Source: Candidatus Cryptobacteroides excrementipullorum
GTDB lineage: Bacteria > Bacteroidota > Bacteroidia > Bacteroidales > UBA932
Reading direction: 5' to 3'
DNA: 64,000 nucleotides
Assembly: GCA_017695065.1 (NCBI GenBank)
Contig: JADILZ010000046.1
Coordinates: 1-64,000, forward strand
Program-made: the position numbers and the translations under genes
The notes under the pieces: model-generated
What the model saw: the letters and a program-made list of their open reading frames with translations, nothing else
Told to the model about the DNA's origin: nothing
The model's database searches: none
Shown here: in pieces, positions 5,312 to 46,912 of the stretch
Layout of the letters: the number at the start of each line of letters is the position of its first letter
Numbering within the stretch: the stretch's first letter is position 1

Positions 5312-5351
5312 GATTTACCTCTACAATAAAACGCCGGAAGCCAGGCATGTT

Positions 5352-6785: not shown

Positions 6786-6811
6786 TGCTTTAAAGTCTGT
6801 TTGACAACGTA

Positions 6812-9763: not shown

Positions 9764-9865
9764 TACCTCCTTGAAAAGAAAGACAGCTCAAAAGCCAAAT
9801 AACCACTTCAGGCACTTTTGAGCTGTCCCGGTGTAATAGAATTTGTTAAGTATAACTATGAAACA

Positions 9866-11716: not shown

Positions 11717-11734
11717 TGCAATACCAGATTAATG

Positions 11735-17638: not shown

Positions 17639-17693
17639 CAAAAGTAGTTTCATACATGACATAAAAGGTGTACTATTCTATCAAAAAAGTACA
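17639..17693 (-). promoter_or_regulatory. Operon A promoter with HTCS operator-like element (site a)
   Basis: Minus-strand -7 TACTTTTG (17639-17646), 15-nt spacer, 32-bp element 17662-17693 (minus strand TGTACTTTTTTGATAGAATAGTACACCTTTTA). Confidence 0.7.
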
Positions 17694-17724
17694 TTATGAA
17701 TCATCCAGGGCGATTTTTGCCGGA

Positions 17725-17759
17725 TTTGTTACGAATGAACGTATTTAAGATTACATTTG
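17725..17759 (+). promoter_or_regulatory. Candidate HTCS promoter (TTTG-N23-TACATTTG)
   Basis: TACATTTG at 17752-17759, TTTG at 17725-17728 (spacing longer than the usual 19-21); supports ATG at 17804. Confidence 0.45.
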
Positions 17760-17803
17760 CAGAAAACTGGATACAGCTACGGAAAATCTCATACTGCATT
17801 CAA

Positions 17804-20800: not shown

Positions 20801-21844
20801 ATTCTGGACAACTATGAATACCGTGCGAGCAAAGGCAAGACTCTACGTAACGGGATAGGCATGGCTCTGGTATCAAGCCTTGTAAAAATGCTTTCAGGAG
20901 AAATAAAAGTGGCAAGCGAACAGGGTAAATACACCATGTTCACAGTCACACTCCCTCATGTCGGGGAAGAGATGGCAAGCACAACTGCTGCTCCGGACAT
21001 GCGTCAGGATATAAAGCCTGCCGCCGAATTGCTTCAGGAAGAAGACGAAAGGCTTCAGAGCAACACCCAGCAGGCCAACGGGAAAAAGAGCATCATGGTA
21101 GTTGATGACGAAGCACAGATACGGGATCTGGTGGCAGACATACTCGGTTACGAATACAGAATAATACAGGCCCGGGATGGAAAAGATGCACTGGAAAAGC
21201 TGAAAGACGGCATACCTGACCTGGTGATATCAGACCTGAATATGCCTAACATGAATGGCACAGAATTATTGAAACATCTGAAAGCCAACGAGATAACCAA
21301 ATTTATCCCTGTTATTTTCCTGGCCTTCAAGACTGATATAGGGGAAGAAATCGAAACCTATGAAATGGGAAGCGAGGTCTTCATCCCGAAACCGTTTTAC
21401 CCGAAGCATCTCAAAGCCGTGGTACACAGAATACTGGACAGCAGGTCAATGTTGAAGGACTATTACAATTCCGCCATATCCTCCAGTGACATATATGACG
21501 GGACTACAGTGGATGCAGAGGGCAAGAAGTTCCTTATGCAGATGACCGCAATAATAGAGGAAAACATCACTGATGAAAACCTATCACCGAACATGATCTG
21601 TGAAAAGATGACCACAAGCAGGATGCAGCTGTACAGAAAACTTAAAGAACTGACGCAGCAGACCCCGAGCGAATTCATCAGGAACATAAAGCTCGAGCAC
21701 GCCGCCCATCTCCTCAAGACTACAAAGCTGACCGTGCAGGAAGTGATGTTCAGTTCCGGGTTCAACAACAAATCTTACTTCTACAGGGAATTCGCCGGGA
21801 AATACATGATGTCGCCGAAGGAATACCGGAAAGGCAACCAGTAG
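17804..21844 (+). CDS. Hybrid two-component system sensor histidine kinase/response regulator (HTCS) with AraC-type HTH
   Basis: Reg_prop propeller repeats (LWIGTWDGLNVYD..., LWVGTRGGGLNRLD...), Y_Y_Y domain, HisKA (HEFTTPLTLICGPIEQI), HATPase (NLISNAYKYTPDGG), receiver (VVDDEAQ...VISDLNMP), C-terminal AraC HTH. Start chosen at MKKTTITAVF (17804) rather than 17696. Confidence 0.95.
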   Translation: MKKTTITAVFIILVITGLFPVHALATPGCYVRTNADGLSNSSITCMYQDSLDRLWIGTWDGLNVYDSHEFWVWQHEPDDDNTISNNVIRGIAEQDGGIMWIATDYGINRIDTRNSIVERFYLGYEHRNPTEEKTFSVTVSDEGEVFCAAKDWGIAFYNSTSGRMEAVNIPGISTSDIAGIYCGGKGRLILISVNGSAALVRYTFPEPGKIDIIEKSDMLPGTTIYCLSVCRDILYMLTTDNEMLRYDTVTSTFTDRIHVPVKGKVKAVAELDGGRVALGFDSRGVCTLEPDTGALDWIPELSDINIFSMYYGSQDILWIGTDGQGLWAFYEDPFKMDKMTYLQMSGTSTRYPVRTFYKDNMGNLFTGTKGNGILVTRGGKRVRSYSTSDGLGNNSVYALTGWEDGDILVGHDGKGINVISGKTGAVSRIIPDKDNDFGSVYNFLKDDTTGYLWMGTSGYGLVKAKIEKTSGEYRISDIRKYTSNPKEYTSINNNVVQALVQEGDSVLWVGTRGGGLNRLDLRTGNFTHYTVDTGDNPISSNDILSLHISRNGTLWAGTSYGLNRLVSYSDGACSFKSITTRDGLHNNTIHGIEEDHAGKLWLGTSQGLSVYEPNSGKITNYYNDDKLQDNEYSDGACYADDSGLLYFGGINGFNWFNPESIQPRSFEPEVLISRVTLSQDPDTDIMDNSGTITLRHNENFFNIYFTALEYINNSNCEYSYILEGFSGDWVQAGTSHSASFTNVPPGKYTFKVRSTNGDKVWSGKTTSIKIRIMPPWWATVWAYIAYTIIIVVAIFLIQTAINMRMKQKHRLELESLKRRQLAQTYEAKLRFFTNIAHEFTTPLTLICGPIEQIMNEYKLPAKVEKYNRIILNNAERMLRLIQELIEFRKADTGNQKPQYSKVDLTEMIMTIIDNFSEMKEEKQITMETSIGQGMSVVTDHNAMEKILYNLISNAYKYTPDGGNISICAGTGPDGITISVKNSGKGIKPEHLGQVFDRFVILDNYEYRASKGKTLRNGIGMALVSSLVKMLSGEIKVASEQGKYTMFTVTLPHVGEEMASTTAAPDMRQDIKPAAELLQEEDERLQSNTQQANGKKSIMVVDDEAQIRDLVADILGYEYRIIQARDGKDALEKLKDGIPDLVISDLNMPNMNGTELLKHLKANEITKFIPVIFLAFKTDIGEEIETYEMGSEVFIPKPFYPKHLKAVVHRILDSRSMLKDYYNSAISSSDIYDGTTVDAEGKKFLMQMTAIIEENITDENLSPNMICEKMTTSRMQLYRKLKELTQQTPSEFIRNIKLEHAAHLLKTTKLTVQEVMFSSGFNNKSYFYREFAGKYMMSPKEYRKGNQ

Positions 21845-21865
21845 GCCGTGAGGAAATGCTGCCAG

Positions 21866-21920
21866 TATACTTATTTGAAAGAATAAGATACCGCTTTATG
21901 GATAGCCGGAGTTAATTTTG
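21866..21920 (+). promoter_or_regulatory. Operon C promoter with HTCS operator-like element (site c)
   Basis: 32-bp element TATACTTATTTGAAAGAATAAGATACCGCTTT (21866-21897), 15-nt spacer, TAATTTTG (21913-21920). Confidence 0.65.
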
Positions 21921-27105: not shown

Positions 27106-27107
27106 AC

Positions 27108-28433: not shown

Positions 28434-28436
28434 TAT

Positions 28437-28575
28437 TCGGTCTTGCCACTTTCCGCAAAGACAGACAGCATTCTCGGAGGAAGTCATGATGTACACGCTT
28501 TTGGGGCACAAACATCCTCTGCCGACAGTCAAACATGTCAATTTCGCTGTCAGTGAAATCACCGGATAATCTCAA
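28437..28575 (-). pseudogene. Possible decayed N-terminal fragment of a Crp/Fnr-family regulator
   Basis: Minus frames read SGDFTDSEIDMFDCRQRMFVPQKRVHHDFLRE then (other frame) ENAVCLCGKWQD, resembling the Crp/Fnr FTxxEIxxF...FLLREGxVC pattern; no full ORF. Confidence 0.25.
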
Positions 28576-28588
28576 CAGATTCTTAAAG

Positions 28589-29614: not shown

Positions 29615-29628
29615 AGTTTAAGTTCCTT

Positions 29629-30237: not shown

Positions 30238-30270
30238 GTCACCTTTGAATTTTTGATGATTTTTCAAATG

Positions 30271-30278
30271 CAAAGATA
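30271..30278 (-). promoter_or_regulatory. -7 element (TATCTTTG) of the AbiE cassette
   Basis: CAAAGATA on plus strand, 34 nt upstream of the antitoxin ATG. Confidence 0.5.
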
Positions 30279-30357
30279 CAGAAAGGATTCAAATCGAGGA
30301 AAGATTTTAAAAATATTTCCTTCAAAAAAGGAAAAACCTGAAAAAACGAATAAATCA

Positions 30358-30387
30358 GGGCTGCCAGGAAAATTCCCGGCAGCCCTT
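30358..30387 (-). terminator. Rho-independent terminator of glycan operon B
   Basis: AGGGCTGCCAGG-AAAATT-CCCGGCAGCCCT hairpin (12-bp arms, one mismatch), followed on the minus strand by GATTTATTCGTTTTTT. Confidence 0.85.
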
Positions 30388-30442
30388 GTTTGATTTTGTT
30401 TGATAGTATTGAGTAAAGACAAAATCTTCTTTTACAATAATG

Positions 30443-31441
30443 CTACTGTTCAGCCTGGCTGAGCAGGGTCCCGTCTTCTCCGTCCTTGGAGATGACGGAG
30501 CCGTCCGCGTTGGAGAACCATACATAGATCTCCGAAATTTCTGCATCGGCAGGAAGTCCGAAGAAGTCCTTTGGATAGATGTACCTTTGATAAGAGGTTT
30601 CACCGACAGCCTCCATCAGAGCCTTGTCTACCTTATCTTCCATCAGCTTCTCTGTCCCGTCAGCAAGCACGGCTTTCCCGCAAAGATAGACAGTCTCCTG
30701 TCCTTCGAGTTGCGTTTCGGAAGCATCAAAATTTACAGAAAATATATCACCATAACGGAAAGTAGATGGCGTAGTGGAAACTGCAGCTGTTGTAGTATAG
30801 TCCAGAATCGGATCACCTTCCTCTCCATATACAGTCACAATCTTAGCGGTCTCGTTCGGGGTATATCGTCCTTCCCCGCTTTCAGAATCAAGGCCCCATG
30901 TCGTTCCACAGAATCCGCATCCCAGATAGAATTTGATAGGGTCAGCCCCTGTAGTCAAAGTAATCGTGACAGTTCCGTATATAGGATCTGTACTTACCTT
31001 ATCATTGATATGGAATACAGTGGCTGATTTGAATACAGTCCACTCTACCGGACCTGTATTGCCCATTACACCTATCTTACTCTGATAAGCGGCCGGATAA
31101 GACAATGCGGTGGACTTCTCCGTTTCAGAATCCGGAATGAGACTCATCGGCTCGTTTACGACTTCAGCATATCCTTGTGCAGCATATCCCTCTGTAGTAA
31201 GAGTCAACGATGCGTTATTTTTGAGGTCCCAGGATTTTGGAGCGAGGAGCGCGAACACCATATTGGAATTGTCATCGGTCTCTGTGACCAGTTTCAACTT
31301 CACTGTAAATGTTATTTCAGTGTTCACCTTGGCATCTTCAGGAAAATTTATCTCTTCAACTACCATTTCACATGCCACCACAAGAGCAGCCAGCGCGATA
31401 GCGGCAATTCCTGCTATTTTATATTTCTTCAGCAATTTCAT
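30443..31441 (-). CDS. DUF4961-like PUL-associated lipoprotein (putative surface glycan-binding protein)
   Basis: N-terminal signal with AALVVACEMVVEEINFP lipobox; located after SusC/D and the propeller protein. Confidence 0.55.
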   Translation of the reverse strand: MKLLKKYKIAGIAAIALAALVVACEMVVEEINFPEDAKVNTEITFTVKLKLVTETDDNSNMVFALLAPKSWDLKNNASLTLTTEGYAAQGYAEVVNEPMSLIPDSETEKSTALSYPAAYQSKIGVMGNTGPVEWTVFKSATVFHINDKVSTDPIYGTVTITLTTGADPIKFYLGCGFCGTTWGLDSESGEGRYTPNETAKIVTVYGEEGDPILDYTTTAAVSTTPSTFRYGDIFSVNFDASETQLEGQETVYLCGKAVLADGTEKLMEDKVDKALMEAVGETSYQRYIYPKDFFGLPADAEISEIYVWFSNADGSVISKDGEDGTLLSQAEQ

Positions 31442-31471
31442 AATATGAATTTCCTTTAAGGATTAATGGAT

Positions 31472-31942
31472 TCACTCTGTAATTTCTCTGAAATAATACG
31501 AGTAATTTATTTCATCGCAATCCAATTGGAATGAGATATAGAACTCTCCTTTGGAATAGTAAGCAATAACCTCATCCGTATCGGTAAGCCTGATTGCATT
31601 GGGCAATCGCTGAGTGTCAAAATAGCACTCGACTTCACCTTCAGGAATATCAAACTGGAATGGAGAGAACGGTACGTCACCATTGCTCATTTCACAGCTC
31701 GAGATCTTCCCGTCCCTGTAATGTATCACGAAGCGGAAGTCATTGAAGAAATCGAAATACGGCATGACATCGATACCGTTCACATTGACCGGATCGATTT
31801 CCAGTACTTCACGCAGGGCATAGTTCACGTCATAGTCTGCAGGATAGTCCGGATCCATCTGATTCGAGACCTCTTTGCATGACTGCGCCACGAAAAGACT
31901 GCATGCCGCGATAATAAGTATTAGATATTTTTTCATGTTCAT
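31472..31942 (-). CDS. Small hypothetical lipoprotein
   Basis: MKKYLILIIAACSLFVAQSCKEVSNQMDPDYPADYDVNYALREV...; lipobox FVAQSC; in operon. Confidence 0.65.
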   Translation of the reverse strand: MNMKKYLILIIAACSLFVAQSCKEVSNQMDPDYPADYDVNYALREVLEIDPVNVNGIDVMPYFDFFNDFRFVIHYRDGKISSCEMSNGDVPFSPFQFDIPEGEVECYFDTQRLPNAIRLTDTDEVIAYYSKGEFYISFQLDCDEINYSYYFREITE

Positions 31943-31955
31943 AATATTTTTTATG

Positions 31956-33404
31956 TTATCTGTTCAGTATCATGTCTTTCTCCACCCAGAAGAACCTCGG
32001 ACGGTAACTCTCCACATTTGTTTTCTGCTCGGCGAACTCGTTTGTGTTCACGTTGTACGAGATGAGAATCATACCGTCCTTCTCGAACTGCGGGTGCGCC
32101 ATAGCATTGTAGGAGTACCAGTTAGGGCTCGCAAGGCCTGGTATTTTGTAAATCAAGGTCTTATGCCCCCACGGCCCCCATGGATTGTCTGAAGTGAACG
32201 TGTATATCTCTCCGCTGTTCCATGTCTTGTTCTGGGCTATGAGGACATATTTGTCCTCCAGTTTGAATACATTGAACTGCGATGAGACAGGGACAGAGGA
32301 CAGGCCGGAGAGAGCAGCCACGGAGTTCTGGTCCGGAGACCATGAGCTGCCGTTCCAGTACTCCCACGAGGAGAAAAGGCCCGTTTCCGTAGTCCTGGCC
32401 ACATACACCTCGGTGACCGGGTCTATATCGTTCTCTATGTCCGTCTGCGCGTAGATATAGAGGAAGCCCGTGCCGTCCAGATCGTTCAGTGCGGCAGCAC
32501 CGAAATGGATGAGCGGAGTCTCAGGAGACGGCGTGAGCGGAGGGTTGTCCTTGAACGGAATAGCAACGTCCCTCACCGGCTTTAATGGCAGGTCCGGAAG
32601 ACTGTATTGCAGGATGTGGGTTTCGTCATAATAGAAATTCCATCCTGCCGGACCGTCTCCGGAGAACATGACCTGCTGGAAAATATACAGGTTGTTCCCT
32701 ACAGCGAACCCGTGCCCGGGCCAGTACCAGCGGCTTCCCTCGTCTGTGACTCCGGCAGGTACTGCCGCTGAGGTATTCGGACCATTCACTTCCGCAAGAG
32801 CGTACGATGTCTGCTTCTCGTGGTCATATACTGAATACGTGTTCCTGTACATGTGGTCGCCGCTGATGCGCCTTCCTCCGGACACCTCGCCGATATACGA
32901 GTCTCCCATAAGGAAGATGCTCCGTCCGTCGCCCAGATAGATGGAGTACATGCCGTCACCCTCCACCACACTCCCCTTGTCAGGGATGATCTTGGAGGCT
33001 ATGGATGTGTCGAGACCGTCTATCTGGACAGGAACGGCAGTAACATTCACGGTATCCGCACCTGAGACAAGAGATATGGATACATTGACCCTCTCATTAT
33101 ACGGAATATGGGTCAATACGCACTCTGTGGCATCTTTTCCAAGCCTTATGCTGTTCTTCCTGTACTGGTCCGAGATGGCATAGCTGTCGAAATCGACATC
33201 ATCCACCAGTTTCCAGGACAGAAATACGCTGTCAGCATTGGATGTGAATGTAGCTTCTACGGCCGGAGTCCCTGTCGGATCCCCGAAAGGGTTGTCCATT
33301 TTCCCGCTGCCGCTTCCGGAACAGGCACTGAACGATGCTGCCGCTGCAGAGAGGCAGAAAAAAAGTGAAAGGTTGGTATTAACGATATTGATGAATGCTG
33401 CCAT
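31956..33404 (-). CDS. DUF5005/DUF4185-like beta-propeller lipoprotein
   Basis: SACSGSGSGKMDNPFGDPTGTPAV..., GDGMYSIYLGDGRSIFLMGDSYIGEVSGGRR..., RWYWPGHGFAVGNNLYIFQQVM; propeller-like repeats; start overlaps susD-like stop (TAATG). Confidence 0.6.
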   Translation of the reverse strand: MAAFINIVNTNLSLFFCLSAAAASFSACSGSGSGKMDNPFGDPTGTPAVEATFTSNADSVFLSWKLVDDVDFDSYAISDQYRKNSIRLGKDATECVLTHIPYNERVNVSISLVSGADTVNVTAVPVQIDGLDTSIASKIIPDKGSVVEGDGMYSIYLGDGRSIFLMGDSYIGEVSGGRRISGDHMYRNTYSVYDHEKQTSYALAEVNGPNTSAAVPAGVTDEGSRWYWPGHGFAVGNNLYIFQQVMFSGDGPAGWNFYYDETHILQYSLPDLPLKPVRDVAIPFKDNPPLTPSPETPLIHFGAAALNDLDGTGFLYIYAQTDIENDIDPVTEVYVARTTETGLFSSWEYWNGSSWSPDQNSVAALSGLSSVPVSSQFNVFKLEDKYVLIAQNKTWNSGEIYTFTSDNPWGPWGHKTLIYKIPGLASPNWYSYNAMAHPQFEKDGMILISYNVNTNEFAEQKTNVESYRPRFFWVEKDMILNR

Positions 33405-34915
33405 TACTTTCTCACAAGATTAGGGTTGAGTCGCTTCTCACGGAGTGGATACGGGAAAAGCAGATCATCTTCTTCAAATGCCGCTTCGTGGCCAGGTGTC
33501 TGGTAACCTATAAGGTCCACGACTTCACCTGTAGTGGTATTCAATGCCTTGCGTGTACGGAGCATATCATACCACGTCTGAGTCTCGAAGCAGAGTTCCC
33601 ATATTCTTTCCTTGTACACTGTGGCAAAATCCAGGCTTGCAGGCGCAGCCTCGTCCGGCAGAGCCCTTGAGTGTACCCTCATATATGCATCTATGGCTGC
33701 GGCATCTGACGTGCTTCCTCCGTCAGACATCACCTTGGCTTCGGCCATAAGAAGCAGAACATCAGCATAGCGAATCAAAGGGTATCCCATTGCGGACTTC
33801 CCTGCATTGGTAGCCGCATTCTGGTCCCAATACTTGTAGATATAAGGACTGTCGGCAGCTATAAGTCCGCTTCCGTCAAGGGCATTGTAATTACATGTGT
33901 AATATCCGAAATCCGCTTTCCTCAAATCACTGTCAGAATATGATTCATAGAAAGAGGCTGTAGGGGCGATCGCTCCTCCATAAGCGGAATTGTCGGATAT
34001 TCCGGCAAGCTCCGGATAAGGAAGCAATGCAGTATGCACTGGCGAGCTGGCCTTGTCAGCCTCCCTTTCTATAGTAAGAATATTCTCTCCGCCACACACG
34101 AAACCTGCATTACGCATCTCGTCGAATGTAGAATATAGGGAAATACCTGCATTGTCATAAACTTCCTTGGCTTTGGCATATGCAAGATCATAATATTCCT
34201 TCCCGAGCTGGAGAGGGAAACCGGCCATCGTCATATATACCTTGGCAAGCAGGGCCTTTACAGCAGAGAGGGCCACATAACCGTTGGAGTTGTTCCATTC
34301 TGTCCCGATAAGGCCTTCTGCAGCTGTAAGATCAGCAACAATCTGAGTATATACGTCAGCCACCGCAGTCAAAGGGATTTCAGTATTCGACATATCAGTG
34401 GTAGGAGCAGTCTTGAGTGGCACATCTCCCCATAGACGTACAAGATTGAAATAGTGGTAGGCTCTCATGAAATAGGCCTGTCCGAGAAGGTTGTTCCTTG
34501 ATGCATCAGAAATCTCTGTAGAAGAAGACGATATGCCCGCAATAGCCACATTGGCATTCTCTATAGCAGTATAGGCAGTCCTCCAGAGTGCTTCCAGATT
34601 TGTGTTCTCCTCCGTTACGGTAAGAAGTTTCGGCTGATCAACCGTATATATTCCTCCTGCAGATCTCTTTCTCTCGCCGTATCCTGTCATATATTCAAGG
34701 AATATGAACCTCTGCGTACCGACTTCGACATCCCCGTCAAAAATGTCATCAAGAAACGTATAGAGCCCCCCGACTGCGGCTTTCATCTGGTCCTCGGTCG
34801 TGAAATACGTGTCCGGAGAAAGGAATGTCTTCGGATTCTCTTTCAGGAAATCCGAGCATGACACAGCCGCAAGGGCAGCCGCAGCACCAAATATAATCAA
34901 TATTTTATTTTTCAT
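33404..34915 (-). CDS. SusD/RagB family nutrient-binding outer membrane lipoprotein
   Basis: AAVSCSDFLKENPKTFLSPDTYFTTEDQMKAAVGGLY..., AYFMRAYHYFNLVRLWGDVPL, PLIRYADVLLLMAEA. Confidence 0.97.
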   Translation of the reverse strand: MKNKILIIFGAAAALAAVSCSDFLKENPKTFLSPDTYFTTEDQMKAAVGGLYTFLDDIFDGDVEVGTQRFIFLEYMTGYGERKRSAGGIYTVDQPKLLTVTEENTNLEALWRTAYTAIENANVAIAGISSSSTEISDASRNNLLGQAYFMRAYHYFNLVRLWGDVPLKTAPTTDMSNTEIPLTAVADVYTQIVADLTAAEGLIGTEWNNSNGYVALSAVKALLAKVYMTMAGFPLQLGKEYYDLAYAKAKEVYDNAGISLYSTFDEMRNAGFVCGGENILTIEREADKASSPVHTALLPYPELAGISDNSAYGGAIAPTASFYESYSDSDLRKADFGYYTCNYNALDGSGLIAADSPYIYKYWDQNAATNAGKSAMGYPLIRYADVLLLMAEAKVMSDGGSTSDAAAIDAYMRVHSRALPDEAAPASLDFATVYKERIWELCFETQTWYDMLRTRKALNTTTGEVVDLIGYQTPGHEAAFEEDDLLFPYPLREKRLNPNLVRK

Positions 34916-34930
34916 TTCTTTCTTGTCCGA

Positions 34931-37900
34931 TTAGAATGTAACTTTAACTTTTGCCGAAACGGTTGTAGGTCTCGGATATGAGTAGTAGTCGATACCTGAA
35001 CCCGTCTTCACATTACCGAATGCCCCGACCTCAGGGTCGTATCCCGGATACGAAGTGAATATGTAAGGGTTCTCGACTGTGACCCCGAGGCTCAGCCCCT
35101 TGACGAACTTGCTGTTCTTCAGGACAGAGTGCTTGAAGTCATATGAGAGCATGATGTTGCGGATACGGAGGAATGTACCGTTGTAGAGCATTCTCGAGTC
35201 CTTCTCGTTCTCGCCCCAGTATGTGTCTGAAGGGCGGCGCACTGCTGCAATCATGGAATTCTGGTTCTCAGGGGACCATGCATCAAGAACTGACGAAGGA
35301 GAGTTTGCATAAAGCTGTCTGTTCTCCATCATGGTAGTGGTGATATTCATGATAGTCGCCCCATACTGGCAGTTGAGGTCGAGCATAAAGGTGAAGCCTT
35401 TCCATGACAATGTGTTCACCATGGAGACCTCGCCTTTAGGTGTTCCGGAACCCATGTATTGACGGTCATTATCATCAATTACGTAGTCATGGTTCACATC
35501 CTCGAACTTGAGGTCACCAGGCTTCTTGCCATATTTTGCGGCTTCCTCCACCTCATCAAGACCCCATGTGCCGAGACGGTTGAGGACAAAGTATGACCCC
35601 CATGGCATACCCTCGACAGCACGGCAGTTGTTACCCAAGTCTATGACCTCGTCGTTTATGTCAACTACAATGATCTTATTTGTGGCAAAAACCAGGTCAG
35701 TGTCCCACTGGAAATTACTGTTGTTGATATTATGGGATGTGATAGTGAGCTCGACACCGGTATTCCTGATCTTTCCGAGATTCGTCCATGTGGTACTGTA
35801 GCCGGTAGTGTAAGGAACCTGCTTCTGGAAGAGGAGGTCGGTGGTAGCCTTGTTGTAATAGTCAGCCATGAGTTCTATCCTGTCATTCAGCAGAGCTATA
35901 TCCAGGCCGACATTCAGCTGCTTGGATGTCTCCCATTTCAGATCAGCATTACCCATGACATTAAGAGTAACAAAGGTATTGGGATTACCGGAGAAATAAT
36001 TTGTCCCGGTACTGTACTGTGACATGGTCTGGTAAGTAGGGATGGAAGCATTACCTACGGCACCGTAGCTGACACGGAGCTTGAGGCTGTTCACATATTC
36101 TTTGGCAAGCTCGAAGAAAGGCTCTTCTGAAATAAGCCAGGCGACAGACCCTGAAGGGAAATATCCATATTTGTTATTGGCGCCGAAATTGGATGCACCG
36201 TCTGCACGGAATGTGAAGCCGAGCATATACCTGTCCAAGAATGTATGGTTCATCCTGAAATAGTACGAATTCATAGTAACCTGGTTCATTGACGAGCTCG
36301 GATTCTGGACCTTTGCTCCAGCCCCGAGATTATGGTAGTCGAAGGATCCGTCGAAGAAATCCTCAGCCCCTGCAGTCGCGCTCTCTGAATGCTCATAATA
36401 CCAGCTGGCTCCAAGCACAAATGATGACCTGAGCTTGCCGTCAAAGAATGTCGGAGACCATGTGAGGTAATCCTCGTTGGACCAGTTCTTGGTATCGGAA
36501 TAACCTATGGTCGCATAGCCGTTGTTGCTTTCGGTGACCTCTGCCAGACCTTTTTCCATGGCATAGCTGATATTCTTGCCGTTATTCATCTGATAATCTC
36601 CCTTCACTGTGAGAGTCAGGTCCTTGTAGAGTTTCATGTTGGCCGTGAGGCTCATCACGAAATAATTGTTCTTCTGGATATTGAATACGGACTGCATCAG
36701 TCTCAGAGGGTTTTCAGCCACCTCTCCGAGAGGGACATCGTCCTTACGGCCCCATGTCCCGTCCTCATATCTTACAGGGACGATAGGAGGCATCTCCATC
36801 ATGTTTCGTAGAGCTCCCTGTCCCATGCCGTTCTCACTGTCGGAATTATTGGCCTGGGTAGAGCCTCCTGTGGCAACCGCCTGGATATCGAGCCAGTCTG
36901 TAATCTGTGACTTGACATTGATGGTACCGTTCAGACGGTTGGAATATGTGCCGCGGAGAAGACCCTCTACATCCTGGTATGAGATACTGGCGTATACTGA
37001 TGTTTTTTCTCCTCCTGATGTGAAAGAAAGCGAGTGGTCATTCACCAGAGCATTCTGGGTCATTACCTTCTGCCAGTCGGTATTGTATTTAGGAGAAGCA
37101 ATGAGAAGACCATTCTCGTCATAAACGTAATTCCCGGAAGAATCCTTTTTGTAATAGAACAGATTCTCCATCGGGGATGTCAGATAGACTGGTGAAGCTC
37201 CACTGTATGCATATGCCCTCCTTTGGAGTTCCATATACCCCTCGGCATCAAGCAAGTCGAGTCTGCGGTTAAGCATGCTGACTCCGACACTCCCATCGTA
37301 GGTCACTGTACCGTGTCCTTTCTTTCCGGCCTTGGTGGTCACGAGTATCACGCCGTTGGCACCCTTGGCTCCGTACATGGCGGTTGCAGCGGCATCTTTT
37401 AGAACTTCGATTGACTCTATGTCTGCCGGATTGATTATAGATGGGTCTATATCTACGATGCCGTCCATAACATAAATAGGGTCAGAACCGGCATTGATGG
37501 AGCCCATACCTCGGATTTGTATAGAGGTGGTTCCTCCCGGACGTCCCGAGAATGAGGCGCTTCGCACACCGGCAACCTTACCGGCAAGACTCTGCATGAT
37601 ATTCAGCGAGGTGGCCCTCTCGTTCAGGGCGTCGCTTTCCACGGAAGAAACCGCTGAGGAAAGGTCCCTTCTGAGCATTGTACCGTATCCTATCGCTACG
37701 GCTTCGTCAAGTCCGATGGACGCGGTGGACATGGTCACATTGAAGACCGTCCTGGAACCGACAGGGATCTCCACTGTCTCATAACCGAGACATGAGAACT
37801 CAAGGATTGTATCTGCGCCGCCGCGAGATATCGAAAAAGTAAATTCACCGTTAGTGTCGGTGGCCGTACCGTCGGTTGTTCCTTTAACCATGACGACCAC

Positions 37901-38044
37901 TCCTGGAAGCGGTCCGCCAGTTTCATCAGACACAGTACCTGAGACGTGTATCTGTTCCTGGGCAGACAGATCGAACACAGGCGCGAGCGACAGCAACGCT
38001 GCCGACATCATACCTGCAAGTTTCTTTAAAACCTGATAATTCAT
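34931..38044 (-). CDS. SusC/RagA family TonB-linked outer membrane protein
   Basis: IHVSGTVSDETGGPLPGVVVMVKGTTDGTATDTNGEFTF..., AVAIGYGTMLRRDLSSAVSSV, IESIEVLKDAAATAMYGAKGANGVILVTTK. Confidence 0.97.
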   Translation of the reverse strand: MNYQVLKKLAGMMSAALLSLAPVFDLSAQEQIHVSGTVSDETGGPLPGVVVMVKGTTDGTATDTNGEFTFSISRGGADTILEFSCLGYETVEIPVGSRTVFNVTMSTASIGLDEAVAIGYGTMLRRDLSSAVSSVESDALNERATSLNIMQSLAGKVAGVRSASFSGRPGGTTSIQIRGMGSINAGSDPIYVMDGIVDIDPSIINPADIESIEVLKDAAATAMYGAKGANGVILVTTKAGKKGHGTVTYDGSVGVSMLNRRLDLLDAEGYMELQRRAYAYSGASPVYLTSPMENLFYYKKDSSGNYVYDENGLLIASPKYNTDWQKVMTQNALVNDHSLSFTSGGEKTSVYASISYQDVEGLLRGTYSNRLNGTINVKSQITDWLDIQAVATGGSTQANNSDSENGMGQGALRNMMEMPPIVPVRYEDGTWGRKDDVPLGEVAENPLRLMQSVFNIQKNNYFVMSLTANMKLYKDLTLTVKGDYQMNNGKNISYAMEKGLAEVTESNNGYATIGYSDTKNWSNEDYLTWSPTFFDGKLRSSFVLGASWYYEHSESATAGAEDFFDGSFDYHNLGAGAKVQNPSSSMNQVTMNSYYFRMNHTFLDRYMLGFTFRADGASNFGANNKYGYFPSGSVAWLISEEPFFELAKEYVNSLKLRVSYGAVGNASIPTYQTMSQYSTGTNYFSGNPNTFVTLNVMGNADLKWETSKQLNVGLDIALLNDRIELMADYYNKATTDLLFQKQVPYTTGYSTTWTNLGKIRNTGVELTITSHNINNSNFQWDTDLVFATNKIIVVDINDEVIDLGNNCRAVEGMPWGSYFVLNRLGTWGLDEVEEAAKYGKKPGDLKFEDVNHDYVIDDNDRQYMGSGTPKGEVSMVNTLSWKGFTFMLDLNCQYGATIMNITTTMMENRQLYANSPSSVLDAWSPENQNSMIAAVRRPSDTYWGENEKDSRMLYNGTFLRIRNIMLSYDFKHSVLKNSKFVKGLSLGVTVENPYIFTSYPGYDPEVGAFGNVKTGSGIDYYSYPRPTTVSAKVKVTF

Positions 38045-38081
38045 CTGATAATTAGTAAGTTATTAATGATTGGCATTACTT

Positions 38082-38139
38082 TGTACACCTTATTCCGGTA
38101 CATTGTCAGGGACACCTGCAGCATAACGCGTATGCAGGT
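38082..38139. repeat. Two dyad-symmetric motifs in the 175-bp gap upstream of the second susC-like gene
   Basis: TGTAC-N11-GTACA (38082-38102) and ACCTGCA-N12-TGCAGGT (38114-38139). Confidence 0.5.
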
Positions 38140-38219
38140 ATCCTCCATCGGACCCGTCCCGTCCTGTCAAATTGAAAATCTAAGTCATAACATATATCGT
38201 TAAAATTTTTGAAAGACCT

Positions 38220-40565
38220 CTATTGTCCTGATCCGGGCAAAGCACTTATTCCCCATGAAGAGGGCTCACTGCCCATATACAGTTCAAGTGTAGAACCGGC
38301 TGCAATGTCGGAGAATGAGACACGGGACTGCACCAACGGCTTGCCGTCCAGCACTGCCTTCTGTATATAGATATTCTCCGGGCTGTTGTCATGCGCTATC
38401 ACGGTGAATTTCCTGCCGTCAGCATATTCCGGGTCCAGGGTAAACTCTATCCTGTCGAATACCGGGCTTGTGATCTCCATCGTGGTCTCCCCCGGGCACA
38501 CCGGATGGATACCCGAGGCGGCCAGGACATACCATGCGGACATCTGGCCCGCGTCGTCGTTGCCCACGAGACCGTTCACTCCTTCGCCATAGGCGTGCGA
38601 GCAGATGAAACGGGTCCATTTCTGGGTCTTCCACGGCTCGCCGAGACGGTTGTACAGGAACGGGACGAAGTGGACAGGCTCGTTGGCATGGTTGTAATAC
38701 TGGTTCCAGAGCATGTTCTCCGGGGTGTTCGCGAAGAAATTGTCCAGATCCTTTATCACTTTTTCACGACCTCCCATCAGTTCCACCATACCGTCGATGT
38801 CATGAGGGACGAACCATCCCTGCTGATAAGGGTTGCACTCGATACAGCCGTACCATTCGGTAGTGCGGGCGTCCTCCGGCCAATCCTCCCAGGAGCCGTC
38901 TGCATGGCGCGGCCTGAACCATCCTTTCTCGGAGTCGAAAATATTCCTGTAGGCTTGTGACTGTAATGCAAAGCGGTCTGCTATGTCAGTCTTGCCGAGC
39001 GACTGCGCGAATTGTGAGACGCACCAGTCGAAGTATGCATATTCCAAGGTCTCGGAGATACAGAGTCCTGTCGGGGACCATCCGAGAGGCCCGTTCCCTG
39101 TCCTTTCCGAGCTGTTCACGGCGTATTCGAGTGCCTTGTCTGCATCGAACGTGCGTATCCCCTTGGCATATGCATCAGCTATGACAGAAAGTGCCGGGTT
39201 GCCGATCATGCAGCCTGAATATGAATTAAGGAACTCCCATCTTTCAAAGTACTCCCTGCCGCTCTGGTCTGCCATCGTAACCAGGGAATTTATAAGGTCG
39301 CTGACGACTTCCGGATTGATTATCGTCTGCAGCGGCATCAGGCTGCGGAAAGTATCCCAGCCGCTGAATATAGTGCGCTTGGTGAATGTACTGTCAGAAT
39401 TGTGTACTTTGTAATCGCCCCCGACATATCTTCCGTCCACATCGGCATATATCCTTGGGTCTATCAGCGAGTGGTAGAGTGCTGTATAGAACACTGTCTT
39501 GTCTTTTTCCGTCCCGCCTGAGATTTTTATACGACCGAGTTCCCTGTCCCACATGGAAAAGGCTTCCTGACGGACCTGGTCAAACGCCTTGCCGTCAATC
39601 TCATGCTCGAAATTCTTCCTCGCCCCGTCCATGTCCACGAACGAAATACCCACCTTGAGTGTGACCTGCTCTCCGGCGGATGTAGGGAATTCTGTAAAGA
39701 ATCCGACATGTTTACCTTCCATCTCAGGAATTCCTCTGAATATCTCGGCTTTGCTTACTCTCTCCAGATAAGGAAGACTTACCACCTCGTCTTTTTTACG
39801 CACCCAGCCTGAAGGTATATCGGCACTCCAGAAGCCGTAGTCCATCAACGGCCGGCTGAACTGTGCATAGAAATACACAGTATAACGGGCATTCCCGTCT
39901 CCATTCCCCCAGCCTCCCGTCTCCGGAGTGCATTTCATCCAGCCGGCAATGGTGCTGTCGTTTATAACCTTGATATACTGAGACTCGGATGTTCCTCCAA
40001 CTCGTCTCGCCAGGTCTATCTGAATGCGCGATAGCTCGTTCTCCGGATACGTGAAACGAAGTATCCCGCAATGTGGTGTGGCAGTACTTTCCACACGTAT
40101 GCCGTAATCAGTCAGGTCTGCCATATAATAGCCGGCCTGGGCCGTCTCGGTATCCTTGTCGTATGCAGAGCGCCATCCGGAAATGCTCCCGTCCTCCTTC
40201 CCGGCGATTGTCTTCATCGGTCCGGTTGTCGGCATCACAAGGAAATTGCCCAGGTCACCGAACCAGCCCACACCGCTCATCTGGGTGAAGGCGAACCCTT
40301 CGATTGTCTTGTGCTCGTAACTGTATCCGCTTGCATTGTCCCCTCCGGTAATGGTATTGGGGCTCACCTGCACCATCCCGTACGGAGTCGTCGCGCCCGG
40401 GAAAGTCTTGCCAAGGCCATGATACACACCAGCATCCCCGACACTTGTACTGGCTCCGATGAATGGATTAACATAGGAAGCCGGTGAAAAATCCTGCACC
40501 TCGTCCGTGCATGCGGTCATGGCCACAAGAGAGAGTGCCGGCATTATCATTTTTTTCAATCTCAT
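38220..40565 (-). CDS. GH92 family alpha-mannosidase
   Basis: YVNPFIGASTSVGDAGVYHGLGKTFPGATTPYGMVQVSPNT..., ECNPYQQGWFVPHDIDGMVELMGG, VGNDDAGQMSAWYVLAASG. Confidence 0.95.
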   Translation of the reverse strand: MRLKKMIMPALSLVAMTACTDEVQDFSPASYVNPFIGASTSVGDAGVYHGLGKTFPGATTPYGMVQVSPNTITGGDNASGYSYEHKTIEGFAFTQMSGVGWFGDLGNFLVMPTTGPMKTIAGKEDGSISGWRSAYDKDTETAQAGYYMADLTDYGIRVESTATPHCGILRFTYPENELSRIQIDLARRVGGTSESQYIKVINDSTIAGWMKCTPETGGWGNGDGNARYTVYFYAQFSRPLMDYGFWSADIPSGWVRKKDEVVSLPYLERVSKAEIFRGIPEMEGKHVGFFTEFPTSAGEQVTLKVGISFVDMDGARKNFEHEIDGKAFDQVRQEAFSMWDRELGRIKISGGTEKDKTVFYTALYHSLIDPRIYADVDGRYVGGDYKVHNSDSTFTKRTIFSGWDTFRSLMPLQTIINPEVVSDLINSLVTMADQSGREYFERWEFLNSYSGCMIGNPALSVIADAYAKGIRTFDADKALEYAVNSSERTGNGPLGWSPTGLCISETLEYAYFDWCVSQFAQSLGKTDIADRFALQSQAYRNIFDSEKGWFRPRHADGSWEDWPEDARTTEWYGCIECNPYQQGWFVPHDIDGMVELMGGREKVIKDLDNFFANTPENMLWNQYYNHANEPVHFVPFLYNRLGEPWKTQKWTRFICSHAYGEGVNGLVGNDDAGQMSAWYVLAASGIHPVCPGETTMEITSPVFDRIEFTLDPEYADGRKFTVIAHDNSPENIYIQKAVLDGKPLVQSRVSFSDIAAGSTLELYMGSEPSSWGISALPGSGQ

Positions 40566-40578
40566 ACTCTTAAAGCAA

Positions 40579-43158
40579 TTACAATGAAATCAGATATGTC
40601 CTTATCCCGAAACGAGGCATGGCCACCTCCATCTCCGGAGTCTTTCCGGAACGGGTGACGGCCGGAGTCCCGGTGACATTGCCGCGGAGGTCAGTCTCGG
40701 ACACGGATCCGGGGTTGAACCCGAACTTCACCTTGACAGGATCCCCGTCACCGGAAGCGTTGAACAGGCGGAGCACAAGGCCGTTGTCTGTCATGTATGC
40801 AGCCGAGATCTCATACCCCGTACCGCTGACATCAATGTACGATGCAGACCCTGACTTCCGCTGGTTTTCAGTACTGCACAGGAGCGGCTCGTTCCACGCC
40901 GCGCTCTCTTCCTGGATTCCTGCGCTGTCCCATTCCCCTGCATGAGGCACTATGGCATACCGTATTTCGGAAGGGCGGCTTATCTTATAGTCACGCCCCC
41001 AAAGCCCTCCGGATGAAATCTGGGCCGTCAGGCCCAGCGGGAATCCCGAGCCGTATGAATAGGAAGTGGTATGGTCTGAGAACAGGGCGAGCGAACTGCC
41101 GCCGTCCTTGCCGGCAAGGTCCACCCAGTTGAGAATGACATTGTGCTTGATATTGTCCCATGTCTCGAAGAAAGTATCCTCCAGGCGGCTGCGGCATACA
41201 TCGAACGGAGCGTTCTTGTAAAGCTGCGGGGCTTCCAGGGCCACAGGGAACAGCACATTGAGGGCATACCTGGTGTCATAGAACCCCCTCCTGTTTGCAT
41301 TGAAACCGTTTTCCTGGGCATATTTGCCTATCCGGACATCCTCGTCCCAGTCGATCCTGAGGCTGCAGTCGATTTTACGGTCGCCTTCCTTCAGTACAAC
41401 TGTCTGAGTATAAGGCACATCATCTATTGCACCACGAACTGTCACTGTCTTTACAAGCCCGTTGCCGGAGACCGTGACTTCGGCAGGAGAGTCGGCAGAA
41501 GAGTGGAACATGCCTTCTTCGTAGAAAAAGCCCTTGAGCTCGTTGATTCCTGTCCCGTGCTTCCTGTCGACATACTCCTTCCCGTCCTGGGTCTTGTCCA
41601 CAAGACTGGTGATCACCCCTCCCCTGGAGGCGTCAAAGACTATCCTGTACATATCGTTTTCAACCACTGCCTCGCCGGAAGAAACGGTCCTGGCCTCTCC
41701 TTTATATACCATACCGGTAGTCTTTCCCGGACGCTGTGCCTCCACAGAGACAGCTGTATAGCCGAACGCCGGTACATCCGCGGCAAAAACCAGTTCCGGA
41801 GTTCCGGATGAGAGGTCCAGTACAGATTCAAGGGTTTTCCCGGACGCGTCTTTTACAGAAACGCCTTCAGATCCGGCAAATCCGGAGGGGAGAGGGACAG
41901 AAACGACCTCGGAACGGGAATAACCTGTCGTGTTGAGCACCTTTATATAAAGTTTTCCGCCCTTTGCAGACCTGCCTGCTGAAAAAGAGGAAAGCGCCTC
42001 GTCTATTATATTACCGCAGATCGTGTCAGTGGACTCAGTCCACAAAGCGATGTTGTCGGCCCAGGTACCGCGGCTGTTGAGCCCGTTGTAAGGCACGATC
42101 CATGAGTCGTGGTGCTGTGCAAGCATAAGAGTGCGCCATGCCTCGTCCATTCTCTCCTGCCCGTATCTGAAACCGTTGTCCAGAGAGGCGATTGCTCCTG
42201 TCTTTTCCGCCTGGACAAGCATGTTCTCGCTGCCTCGAACCTGACGCGCGATAGTCTGGAGGACCTGACTGCCCCACATGAGGGCAGGCCGTACATCCTC
42301 CTGGGAAAAAACGTAGTCGTCATCGGTCCGTCCCGATGTCTTTTCCTCGAAATACTCTCTCCATGTCACATACACAGACCCGTTTCTTGTGCTGTCCGCA
42401 TATCCTATCCAAGGGCCGAATGTCCATCCGGCATCCTGGTAGCACATCCCCACGATATCCTTTATACCGGCCTTGCGGCAAGCTTCGATATATCCGTCTT
42501 CGTTCCCCCAGGCAGTAGTCTGCCATACGCTTCCTTCCTGAAGGTCTTCGCAGGCATATCTCGGAGAGGTCAGAATTGATGTCCCGTCAGGTCCTGTCCA
42601 GTTCACAAGCTCACCGCCATAAGGTGCGGAATATCCTCCCCAGCAGGTGTTGGGGCACTTCAGTGAGGCGTACTTGAAACCGAACTGGCGCAACACCTGC
42701 GGGAGGGCGCTGGTAAAACAAGGCTCTTCTACAGCATAAGTGCTAAACTCCACATCAGGGAAATGGCTGTGTATCTTCCGGATACCGTAGTCAAGCTGAC
42801 GGATTATGCTCTCTCCGGAAATGTTGTACATATAAGGCTGGGCGTATGCCGGATTGGTGAACTCAACCCTGTCGGACCCTGCCCATCCGGCGAATCTTCT
42901 GTACGCCTCCGGGGTGCGTACGGCCACCGTATCCCAGGTCTCAGGCTCTATCTCCAGGCACATCCTCCACTCTGGATATTTCTCCAGAAGTCCGGACATG
43001 TAGTCCGTGTATGTCTGCATAGGGTAATGCCCGTATACCCCTCCGTGGAATCCGTCCACGAAATAGATATGCTCCTGTCCCTGGGCGCAAAGGCCGCTGT
43101 TCCCGGACATGGCCGGAAGCAAAAGCACTGCAATTGCCGATATAATGACTTTTCTCAT
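40579..43158 (-). CDS. GH38-like alpha-mannosidase-family protein
   Basis: LAQHHDSWIVPYN, EEPCFTSALPQVLRQFGFKYASLK, GH38-type C-terminal beta-sandwich; N-terminal metal motif differs from canonical. Confidence 0.75.
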   Translation of the reverse strand: MRKVIISAIAVLLLPAMSGNSGLCAQGQEHIYFVDGFHGGVYGHYPMQTYTDYMSGLLEKYPEWRMCLEIEPETWDTVAVRTPEAYRRFAGWAGSDRVEFTNPAYAQPYMYNISGESIIRQLDYGIRKIHSHFPDVEFSTYAVEEPCFTSALPQVLRQFGFKYASLKCPNTCWGGYSAPYGGELVNWTGPDGTSILTSPRYACEDLQEGSVWQTTAWGNEDGYIEACRKAGIKDIVGMCYQDAGWTFGPWIGYADSTRNGSVYVTWREYFEEKTSGRTDDDYVFSQEDVRPALMWGSQVLQTIARQVRGSENMLVQAEKTGAIASLDNGFRYGQERMDEAWRTLMLAQHHDSWIVPYNGLNSRGTWADNIALWTESTDTICGNIIDEALSSFSAGRSAKGGKLYIKVLNTTGYSRSEVVSVPLPSGFAGSEGVSVKDASGKTLESVLDLSSGTPELVFAADVPAFGYTAVSVEAQRPGKTTGMVYKGEARTVSSGEAVVENDMYRIVFDASRGGVITSLVDKTQDGKEYVDRKHGTGINELKGFFYEEGMFHSSADSPAEVTVSGNGLVKTVTVRGAIDDVPYTQTVVLKEGDRKIDCSLRIDWDEDVRIGKYAQENGFNANRRGFYDTRYALNVLFPVALEAPQLYKNAPFDVCRSRLEDTFFETWDNIKHNVILNWVDLAGKDGGSSLALFSDHTTSYSYGSGFPLGLTAQISSGGLWGRDYKISRPSEIRYAIVPHAGEWDSAGIQEESAAWNEPLLCSTENQRKSGSASYIDVSGTGYEISAAYMTDNGLVLRLFNASGDGDPVKVKFGFNPGSVSETDLRGNVTGTPAVTRSGKTPEMEVAMPRFGIRTYLISL

Positions 43159-43170
43159 GGTGCGGTATCA

Positions 43171-44553
43171 TTATTTGCTGCGGAGAGAAATGCGGTGCTC
43201 CACAGGTTTGTTTATCTGGTAAATCCTGTCTGTAAGCATATTCATTTCGGCTATACGGGTGTCACGCACATCCTTGTGCATCAGCCTGGCATAAGTGTCC
43301 CTGTGGATTCCGGCCCATATATCCTGCGTCTTGTATTTGTCGATAGCCTCCACGGCCTTCCGGTCGTTAGCGTCAAGCAATCCTTTCGGCTTCATGAAGC
43401 CGTACTGCATCCATGCATAATCCCGGAAACTGCGCTCAATCTCCCATCTCCATTCGTTCAGATACATCACCTGGAGAGCCTGCTGGTACTGTGGGGACCA
43501 TGTAAGTTCTGCCATATTGATTCCCTTTGACAGCTCGTCTCCGTTCCAGACTCCGAGAGGCTGCCCGTCGATAAGGAGTTCATAATCACCTTTCAGACCT
43601 GTGACTTTCAGTATCTCCTGATTCATCTCTTCCATGAAAGGGACCATCTTCAGTGCACCTGCCTGGGCTCTATGGGACCCGAAGCCGCGGGCGACAGTAT
43701 CGAGCGGATATGGAAGGGATTCAGCAAGATATGTGAACGATATTCCTGTGCGGTCTTTCCTCAAGTCCGATATGGCGCAATTCTCTGTCCTGACCACATT
43801 GGCAGATGGGGCATCAATCTCTATGTCAGCGACTTTTTTACCTGCAAAACCCTGCGCTTTGAGAAAAAGATATGCCATGACCATATGACCGTCATTATCC
43901 GGGTGGATACGGTCTCCCATAGTGATGGTAAAAGAAGGATCTTCAGCCTGCATTTTTGCAGCGACCTCCACAAGTGGCTTGCTGAAATCGATGAAATCCC
44001 AGCCGTTCCTTTCTGCTGCAGCCTTCTGGTAAGCCACCACACGGTCCATGACAGCGTTCTTTCCTTTGAACGGCACATTCCCGTCTATCTGCGCCGTCTC
44101 ATCATAAGGAGAGCCGCCTATCATCACGATATGGACATTATCCAGTGCAAGCAGCCGCTTCTCGATCTTGTCAAAGTTGGAGATACATTCCCTGTATCGT
44201 TTTTCGCCATACTTGTCGGCACCTTTCTGGTTGTACTCGACATACCCGGTATCGTTCATTCCGAACGTTACCATGAGCACAGTCGGTTTCTTGCTGAATA
44301 CATCCCCGTCAAGGCGCTCATACATGTCTCCTGCCGTATTGCCACCTATCCCGGCATTGAAAACTTTCACATCCATATAAGGGAATCTGGTCATATAATA
44401 GAGCCAGATATAGGAATGATAGTGGCCTCCGTCAGTTATGCTGTCCCCAAGATATACCGCACGGTCACCGCCGGTGAATGGGACAACCGTCTGGGCCAAC
44501 GCCGCAACGCTGAGCCCGAAGGCCGCAGCCATAGTGAAGAAAAGACGTTTCAT
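43171..44553 (-). CDS. SGNH/GDSL hydrolase family protein (putative carbohydrate esterase)
   Basis: RAVYLGDSITDGGHYHSYIWLYY..., VFNAGIGGNTAGDMYERL, TVLMVTFGMNDTGY, MGDRIHPDNDGHMVMA. Confidence 0.88.
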   Translation of the reverse strand: MKRLFFTMAAAFGLSVAALAQTVVPFTGGDRAVYLGDSITDGGHYHSYIWLYYMTRFPYMDVKVFNAGIGGNTAGDMYERLDGDVFSKKPTVLMVTFGMNDTGYVEYNQKGADKYGEKRYRECISNFDKIEKRLLALDNVHIVMIGGSPYDETAQIDGNVPFKGKNAVMDRVVAYQKAAAERNGWDFIDFSKPLVEVAAKMQAEDPSFTITMGDRIHPDNDGHMVMAYLFLKAQGFAGKKVADIEIDAPSANVVRTENCAISDLRKDRTGISFTYLAESLPYPLDTVARGFGSHRAQAGALKMVPFMEEMNQEILKVTGLKGDYELLIDGQPLGVWNGDELSKGINMAELTWSPQYQQALQVMYLNEWRWEIERSFRDYAWMQYGFMKPKGLLDANDRKAVEAIDKYKTQDIWAGIHRDTYARLMHKDVRDTRIAEMNMLTDRIYQINKPVEHRISLRSK

Positions 44554-44606: not shown

Positions 44607-46793
44607 TCAGTTTCCGAACGATGGAGGAAGCTGCTCCCGCCCCCAGTTGCCTGAAGGTCTAGTTGATGTGGTGTATTCGACTACAGCCCCGTTGCACACA
44701 TCCTCCCAAGAGATCCAGGCTTTGGCATGAGGCTTCCCGTCAATCTTGAGTCCTGTAGTATAAATCCTGGTTTCAGACCCTCCTGCAATGACAAGATCCC
44801 CGTTTTCAAGATGTACAGTAATCTTCTCGAATATCGGGGTGTTCAAGGCGAAGCCTCCGATTCCGGGAATCATCGGATACATTCCCATGCAGGCGAATAC
44901 ATACCACGCCCCCATTGTGCCAAGATCATCGTTGCCCGGCAGGCCGTCCGGTGCAGCGGAGTAGTGGTCGTTTATGATTCTGTTGACAACTTCGGAAGTC
45001 TTGTCAGGTCTTCCCACCCAGTCATAAATCCACGGTATCTGGAAACTGGGCTCATTGCCGCAGGCATACCAGTCCTGTACATAGTTGGCATCCAGACGCC
45101 TGAAGAGCTCGTCCAGACGCTTCTCGGCGATTTCCGGGCCTCCGATGATGTCGATAAGGCCGGCTATATTGAACGGCACCATCCAGAAATAATTCGGATA
45201 GGTGGATTCTCTCCAGTCCTCGCCAAGGGACTTCCACGACCCGTCCGCATTCCTGGACTGCAGCCATCCTGTCTCCGGATTATAAAGGTTTTTCCACTGC
45301 TGGGCCCGCCCTGAATAATGCCAGTCGGCAAATTCGTCTCCGCATGCATACAAGGCAAACTTCCCGATAGCAAAGTCCGATGTGCTGTACTCCAGATGCT
45401 CTGAGACGTTCCACCAGCCCTTGTCCTTATACTGCTGGAGACCCGGACGTTCCTCGATATCCTGGGATTTGAGCCCCGGAATCTCGGCATTGTTCTTCAT
45501 CAGCCCGAATACCGGGAGCGGATCATAATCCCTTGCCCCGAAGGCCCATGCATTAGCTATCAGTGCAGGAGTAGGGTCACCCTGCATTATTCCGGTCTCG
45601 ATATTGGCCATCACCCATCTTGGAAGTGCCCCTCCGGACTGCTCCGCGAAATCCCTGTGAGACCGTACCACAGCGGAGGCGACATCAGGATCAAGCATTG
45701 CAAGCAACTGTATCTGGGTACGGTAAGTATCCCAATTGCTGAAAGACGTATAATGGACATCCCGACTGCGGTGAACCTTGAAATCAGCCCCCATATACTC
45801 ACCGTTCACGTCACTGCATATATTCGGATGTATCAGGGCATGATACAGATGTGTATAGAACTGTACCTTCCTGAGTGGATCGGTCCCGTGCACTTCTATC
45901 TTACCGAGATATTTATCCCATGCTCCTTCGGCAGACTCTCTTACGGAATCAAAAGACCATCCGGGATTTTCCGCACGGAGATTTTCCCTGGCGTTCTCCA
46001 CAGACACATAAGACACACCTATTTTATATTGTATCTTCCTTCCGCCGCGAGTATCGAACGTGAAGTACACCCCAGAGCTTTCTCCCTCTGCAAAACTTGC
46101 CTCTCTTAGAAGCCTGTCGCCTTTCCACACGCCTGTCTCGAGTGCCTCGGCATCAAATTCAGCAACGAAATACACTTTATAAGGAGTTCTCACCCCGCAG
46201 AAATTCCCTCCTTCTGCATATCCTTCACAGCTCGAAGGTCCGGTAATGCATACCGCAGCCTGGGAAATCGGTGTAGCAGATATTCCTGCTCCTATTATTA
46301 TTGTCCCTTTCCCGTCCGGACAATCCTCCGGGAATACATACCTTGCCATACCTGTCCTAGGTGTCACGGAAAGTTCCGCAAGGATTCCACCGTCCACCTC
46401 AGCCTGATAATATCCGGCATGCCCCTTCTCGGAAGAAATGCTGACCCTGTTGCCGAAAAGCTCTGATGGAGAGCCGTCGACACCTCCTTTCACAGGAAGA
46501 GTAGGGAAATTGCCCATGTGCCGGCAACCGGCGCCGCTGAGCTGGTTGATGACAAAACCTCCACGGCGGGCAAAGTAAGTAGGAGTGAACTGCACCATCC
46601 CGAAAGGACGTGTGGCTCCAGGATAGACGAATCCGGCTACAAGGCCGGCACCTTCCGTCCCGATAAGAGTGTTCACCGTACATGAAAGGCTCTCTCCTGA
46701 AACCTCAGCATGCAGTGAGAAGGACGTGTATGCAGACAAGATCATGGCAGCGCCACATGCCGCTGCCAGTTTTTTTACAATCATAGCAGACAT
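44607..46793 (-). CDS. GH92 family alpha-mannosidase (start 46784-46802 uncertain)
   Basis: VNTLIGTEGAGLVAGFVYPGATRPFGMVQFTPTYFARRGGFVINQLSGAGCRHMGNFP..., LPGNDDLGTMGAWYVFACMGMYPMIPG. ORF-track start at 46916 would lie inside the promoter. Confidence 0.93.
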   Translation of the reverse strand: MSAMIVKKLAAACGAAMILSAYTSFSLHAEVSGESLSCTVNTLIGTEGAGLVAGFVYPGATRPFGMVQFTPTYFARRGGFVINQLSGAGCRHMGNFPTLPVKGGVDGSPSELFGNRVSISSEKGHAGYYQAEVDGGILAELSVTPRTGMARYVFPEDCPDGKGTIIIGAGISATPISQAAVCITGPSSCEGYAEGGNFCGVRTPYKVYFVAEFDAEALETGVWKGDRLLREASFAEGESSGVYFTFDTRGGRKIQYKIGVSYVSVENARENLRAENPGWSFDSVRESAEGAWDKYLGKIEVHGTDPLRKVQFYTHLYHALIHPNICSDVNGEYMGADFKVHRSRDVHYTSFSNWDTYRTQIQLLAMLDPDVASAVVRSHRDFAEQSGGALPRWVMANIETGIMQGDPTPALIANAWAFGARDYDPLPVFGLMKNNAEIPGLKSQDIEERPGLQQYKDKGWWNVSEHLEYSTSDFAIGKFALYACGDEFADWHYSGRAQQWKNLYNPETGWLQSRNADGSWKSLGEDWRESTYPNYFWMVPFNIAGLIDIIGGPEIAEKRLDELFRRLDANYVQDWYACGNEPSFQIPWIYDWVGRPDKTSEVVNRIINDHYSAAPDGLPGNDDLGTMGAWYVFACMGMYPMIPGIGGFALNTPIFEKITVHLENGDLVIAGGSETRIYTTGLKIDGKPHAKAWISWEDVCNGAVVEYTTSTRPSGNWGREQLPPSFGN

Positions 46794-46823: not shown

Positions 46824-46878
46824 CAAAAATATCATCCTGTGCAGACTAAAAGGTACACTTTCCTTGCAAAAAAGTATA
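46824..46878 (-). promoter_or_regulatory. Operon B promoter with HTCS operator-like element (site b)
   Basis: Minus-strand -7 TATTTTTG (46824-46831), 15-nt spacer, 32-bp element 46847-46878 (minus strand TATACTTTTTTGCAAGGAAAGTGTACCTTTTA). Confidence 0.7.
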
Positions 46879-46912
46879 CTGCCGCCAAATCCGGAACGGC
46901 AAGGACCAGAAT

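Follow-up and report, generated by a model that had tools for sequence, protein, structure and literature searches.

Site b, a direct repeat followed by a predicted promoter box in a 64,000-nt window (the whole stretch of DNA analysed) of Candidatus Cryptobacteroides excrementipullorum, is in our reading the operator-promoter of operon B and a member of the regulon of the HTCS encoded in the same polysaccharide utilization locus (PUL), to which we give a probability of about 0.9 from sequence comparison. HTCS control of operon B is very likely because the element is present in three copies, scores high in models built from other genomes, and is conserved in 12 genomes, 11 of which carry an orthologue of this HTCS. 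Very probably, the predicted regulon extends to all three neighbouring operons (A, B, and C), which a single HTCS would turn on. The locus joins SusC/SusD pairs with glycoside hydrolases and a regulator, as a PUL does, and the regulator is a single polypeptide with a periplasmic Reg_prop/Y_Y_Y sensor, HisKA, HATPase, receiver, and AraC-type HTH. Coordinates are collected in Table 1.

Table 1. Features of the locus, given as positions in the window.
Feature	Position	Strand	Basis or remark
Site b, putative HTCS operator and promoter, head of operon B	46824..46881	-	repeat, genome scans, cross-genome model, conservation
Site b, distal half-site CAGTATACTTTTTTG	46867..46881	-	model, conservation
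Site b, proximal half-site AAGTGTACCTTTTAG	46846..46860	-	model, conservation; putative -33 overlap from spacing
Site b, predicted -7 box TATTTTTG (TAnnTTTG)	46824..46831	-	fixed spacing, conservation, consensus
Site a, same element, head of operon A	17639..17696	-	genome scans, model; conserved in G379
Site c, same element, head of operon C	21863..21920	+	genome scans, model; weaker copy in G379
HTCS (Reg_prop/Y_Y_Y sensor, HisKA, HATPase, receiver, AraC-type HTH)	17738..21844	+	start at 17738 likely
Operon B, GH92 mannosidase 1	44607..46793	-	
Operon B, SGNH/GDSL esterase	43171..44553	-	
Operon B, GH38 mannosidase	40579..43158	-	
Operon B, GH92 mannosidase 2	38220..40565	-	
Gap before SusC-B, 175 nt	38045..38219	-	neither TAnnTTTG nor terminator-like site; fold comparable to shuffles
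Operon B, SusC	34931..38044	-	
Operon B, SusD	33404..34915	-	
Operon B, DUF5005-like protein	31956..33404	-	
Operon B, small hypothetical protein	31472..31942	-	orthologues after SusD and DUF5005-like gene in G379, G158
Operon B, DUF4961 protein	30443..31441	-	

The string by which site b had been recognised in the preliminary description occupies 46847-46878 of the minus strand (0 mismatches, unique in the window, matched in 0 of 100 shuffles), and TATTTTTG follows 15 nt downstream, as described there. The site contains a direct repeat of 21-bp period, AGTATACTTTTTTG / AGTGTACCTTTT, and the full element reads CAGTATACTTTTTTG-CAAGGA-AAGTGTACCTTTTAG-N14-TATTTTTG, with six bases between the half-sites and 14 between the proximal half-site and the box, which itself conforms to TAnnTTTG, the Bacteroidetes -7 box consensus (PMC7366714), and is separated by 30 nt from the GH92 ATG at 46793. 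Site b has the roughly 21-bp distance between half-sites of an HTCS operator, stands upstream of a PUL operon, is conserved together with the HTCS, and at the sequence level includes a candidate promoter for the primary sigma factor of Bacteroidetes shortly upstream of a gene. When shifted by 21 positions against itself, site b matches at 11 of 15 positions, site a at 9, and site c at 8. The distal half-site of site b shares a mean identity of 0.78 with the 11 orthologous sites, while its upstream flank shares 0.23.

Scans of the 2.76-Mb assembly (97.8% complete), allowing up to 3 mismatches, returned sites a, b, and c and no fourth copy, and the reversed-pattern control gave zero matches in the whole genome under the same threshold. 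Each of the three copies heads an operon of this PUL; they align without gaps, and in all three TAnnTTTG begins 47 nt past the common anchor. A leave-one-genome-out model, from which all sites of the window had been excluded, scored site b at 50.9, site a at 48.2, and site c at 45.3, no other position in the window exceeding 9.2. Likewise, a slightly larger model derived exclusively from other genomes gave 52.3 (b), 47.7 (a), and 42.7 (c), whereas 20 Mb of simulated intergenic DNA reached no more than 22.2. A genus-wide pattern scan at 3 mismatches yielded mostly chance matches, similar in number to those of the reversed-pattern control, and the sites were therefore sought at orthologous operons instead.

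To avoid circularity, the HTCS sensor and SusC-B served as separate queries for these orthologous loci. Among 400 genomes of the genus, the HTCS was counted in 20 and SusC-B in 15, and both occurred together in 12 where 0.75 would be expected by a statistic that ignores shared ancestry. The nearest homologues of operon B reside in Candidatus Cryptobacteroides and on one uncultured Bacteroidales contig (L093, L056). Twelve Candidatus Cryptobacteroides genomes (11 besides this one) carry the element at the head of the orthologous mannosidase-SusC/D operon, and across them the footprint from half-site to -7 box aligns without gaps, with mean pairwise identities of 0.70 and 0.66 for the half-sites and 0.86 for the box, compared with 0.28, near chance, for the flanks. 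An HTCS orthologue exists in 11 of these 12 genomes, usually beside the operon, and 21 loci of more distant GH92 homologues, almost all from other genera, lack the element (best score 11.8). Together with the presence of the same element at both operons flanking the HTCS, this pattern supports the initial proposal that site b is a predicted operator copy of that same HTCS.

The HTCS orthologue and operon-B genes share one contig in G379, G158, G368, G311, G071, G384, G146, and G189, and in all of these except G311 they adjoin or lie near each other. In G311, about 35 kb and a second HTCS intervene on the contig, and the element still stands at the head of operon B. In G143 the two occupy separate contigs, each close to an end, with the element directly before SusC-B; all three sites recur in G379. 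Speaking against the assignment, the site of G165, which possesses the HTCS, is visible only by eye. Two genomes, G156 and G327, encode a SusC-B relative without an HTCS match at 1e-100, and the element is missing from both.

How far transcription from site b would reach is the point on which an alternative survives best. The order GH92-SGNH-GH38-GH92-SusC-SusD given for operon B in the preliminary description was correct, and the operon probably runs on through the DUF5005-like, small hypothetical, and DUF4961 genes to 30443. No operator or TAnnTTTG box was recognisable in the 175-nt gap at 38045-38219, so SusC-B appears to lack a site of its own, and its control from site b would require read-through of this gap, which is likely. 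It is nonetheless conceivable, though rather unlikely, that control by site b ends with the enzyme genes (at 38220), and that SusC/D and the later genes use a promoter inside the gap, which is longer than its 60-nt counterpart in G379. Furthermore, a separate operator precedes a SusC gene in the distant relatives G189, G384, G049, G212, and G071, by which the transporter family was independently placed in the regulon. Against such an internal promoter stands the gap itself, which besides having no TAnnTTTG contains no terminator-like site and folds no better than its shuffles.

As to which regulator would read site b, the genome encodes two further full HTCSs, and a 21-bp architecture is common to HTCS operators (PMC3878776); even so, recognition by one of the other two is very improbable. 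The HTH recognition regions of both differ from that of the PUL HTCS, whereas these regions remain similar in the orthologues with which it shares the operator; no element of this type was seen in the inspected surroundings (roughly 20 kb) of each of the two, and it is the orthologue of the PUL HTCS that accompanies the site across the genus. Slightly less probable still is that site b serves, instead of or besides operon B, the divergent CusBA-TolC efflux operon (46986 onwards, plus strand), with which it shares a 192-bp intergenic region, given that repeat and -7 box both occupy the minus strand at fixed spacing. Since a separate TACTTTTG precedes the efflux operon at 46939 (plus strand), and no CusBA homologue accompanies the other 11 footprint loci, all of which retain the site, these genes are probably outside the regulon. 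Finally, nothing was found in favour of a chance resemblance or non-functional remnant, and chance as the origin of site b is statistically refuted by the three-copy genome scans, the model scores, and the ungapped footprint across genomes.

Assuming that the HTCS acts at site b, we envisage that an oligosaccharide from an alpha-mannose-containing glycan would bind its periplasmic sensor, upon which the kinase-receiver module would free the AraC-type DNA-binding domain. A pair of these domains could then occupy the two half-sites, 21 bp or two helical turns apart, on one face of the DNA. Judging from the spacing, the downstream edge of the proximal half-site extends to where the -33 region is expected, a position suggesting that the HTCS activates transcription by touching RNA polymerase directly: the proximal domain, lying over this region, would bring the polymerase to the TAnnTTTG box. 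Binding at sites a and c in the same manner would switch on operons A and C together with B. As a side observation, site a is located directly upstream of the likely HTCS start codon (17661-17738), and HTCS binding there could also influence expression of the HTCS itself. The enzymes of the predicted regulon (three GH92, GH38, GH130, GH2, rhamnosidase, acetylesterases, and a sulfatase) suggest a decorated, alpha-mannose-containing glycan as the substrate. The best PDB sequence matches are 4a2l, which we take to be BT4663, for the sensor and 12aw for the receiver and DNA-binding part; these and other solved HTCS parts are nevertheless distant in sequence, and the ligand cannot be deduced from 4a2l.

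The proposed control belongs to a known type. Published HTCS operators are 21-bp direct repeats (PMC3878776), and that of the Bacteroides thetaiotaomicron HTCS_Man regulons (BT2628, BT3786, BT3302; Ravcheev et al. 2013, PMC3878776) consists of directly repeated 16-bp sites with a 5-bp spacer, i.e. a 21-bp period. Our locus is reminiscent of these mannoside PULs in architecture, as in both mannosidases and SusC/D are under, or in our case predicted to be under, an AraC-type HTCS with an operator of 21-bp period; it differs in genus, and in that one HTCS would here govern two SusC/D pairs along with GH130, rhamnosidase, esterases, and a sulfatase. One HTCS motif heading several operons, distant ones included, is likewise found for HTCS_Rgu-1 and HTCS_Hep of B. 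thetaiotaomicron, and two SusC/D systems in one regulon for HTCS_Rgu-1 (PMC3878776), although two HTCSs govern the latter jointly, and the substrates of both differ from the one suggested here. With its 21-bp repeats, several operons, and two SusC/D pairs, the present case is thus ordinary, but unusually well supported. It leaves the general picture of HTCS control unchanged, and it provides a precise predicted regulon of three operons in an uncultured genus for which little work on PUL regulation exists; our literature search returned no study of PUL regulation in Candidatus Cryptobacteroides. Moreover, sequence can reveal an HTCS operator with very high specificity, which allows a regulator to be named for SusC/D pairs that have none next to them.

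Regarding the history of the locus, the HTCS lies about 25 kb from site b, as first stated, since it ends at 21844, and this distance is due to the intervening operon C and AbiE insertion, whose position between HTCS and operon B was also rightly described. An AbiE-type toxin-antitoxin pair (AbiEii + DUF6088) occupies 28589-30273 between operons C and B and is missing from G379. The remark that operon B has no dedicated regulator nearby therefore holds for the distance seen here, but is misframed, because the orthologue adjoins or nears operon B in seven other genomes, and the HTCS at 17738-21844 is by this comparison operon B's own predicted regulator. Similarly, operon B, described as bringing a second SusC/D pair under the same HTCS, does bear the same element, but the newer pair is probably that of operon A, as operon A of G379 has no SusC/D pair. 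Relative to G379, in which GH130 is followed by rhamnosidase, SusC/D-A, GH2, and acetylesterase appear inserted in operon A at 5240-14788. A close relative of SusC-A was not found in G379, G158, G368, G071, or G311, where a match was either lacking or at most 34-35% identical. By presence and absence rather than by a tree, the HTCS and operon B look like the ancestral core to which the A pair was added later, and the AbiE cassette and divergent efflux operon seem to have arrived later as neighbours.

The one element-bearing genome in which the HTCS is absent and the operator kept, which likewise speaks against the assignment, is G078, an 84% complete MAG of Candidatus Cryptobacteroides faecavium. 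Its PUL (L149, G078:C9, 1-17500; L093) lacks segments matching the window at 5240-25285 (HTCS, SusC/D-A, MFS) and 27110-38262 (sulfatase, AbiE, SusC/D-B), while the operator before GH92 is retained and enlarged to three half-sites spaced by 21 bp; the losses could reflect real decay or a MAG artefact. Although we consider it doubtful, the ancestral HTCS/operon-B pair may have recruited operons A (with the second SusC/D pair) and C by operator copies, and the operator in Candidatus C. faecavium may have outlived its HTCS, maybe being taken over by another regulator, so that the regulon would have been both enlarged and dismantled through the movement of operators and operons. As a last detail, the GH43 and sulfatase ORFs of operon C (25567-28433) overlap by 91 bp as listed, and the sulfatase probably starts further downstream.
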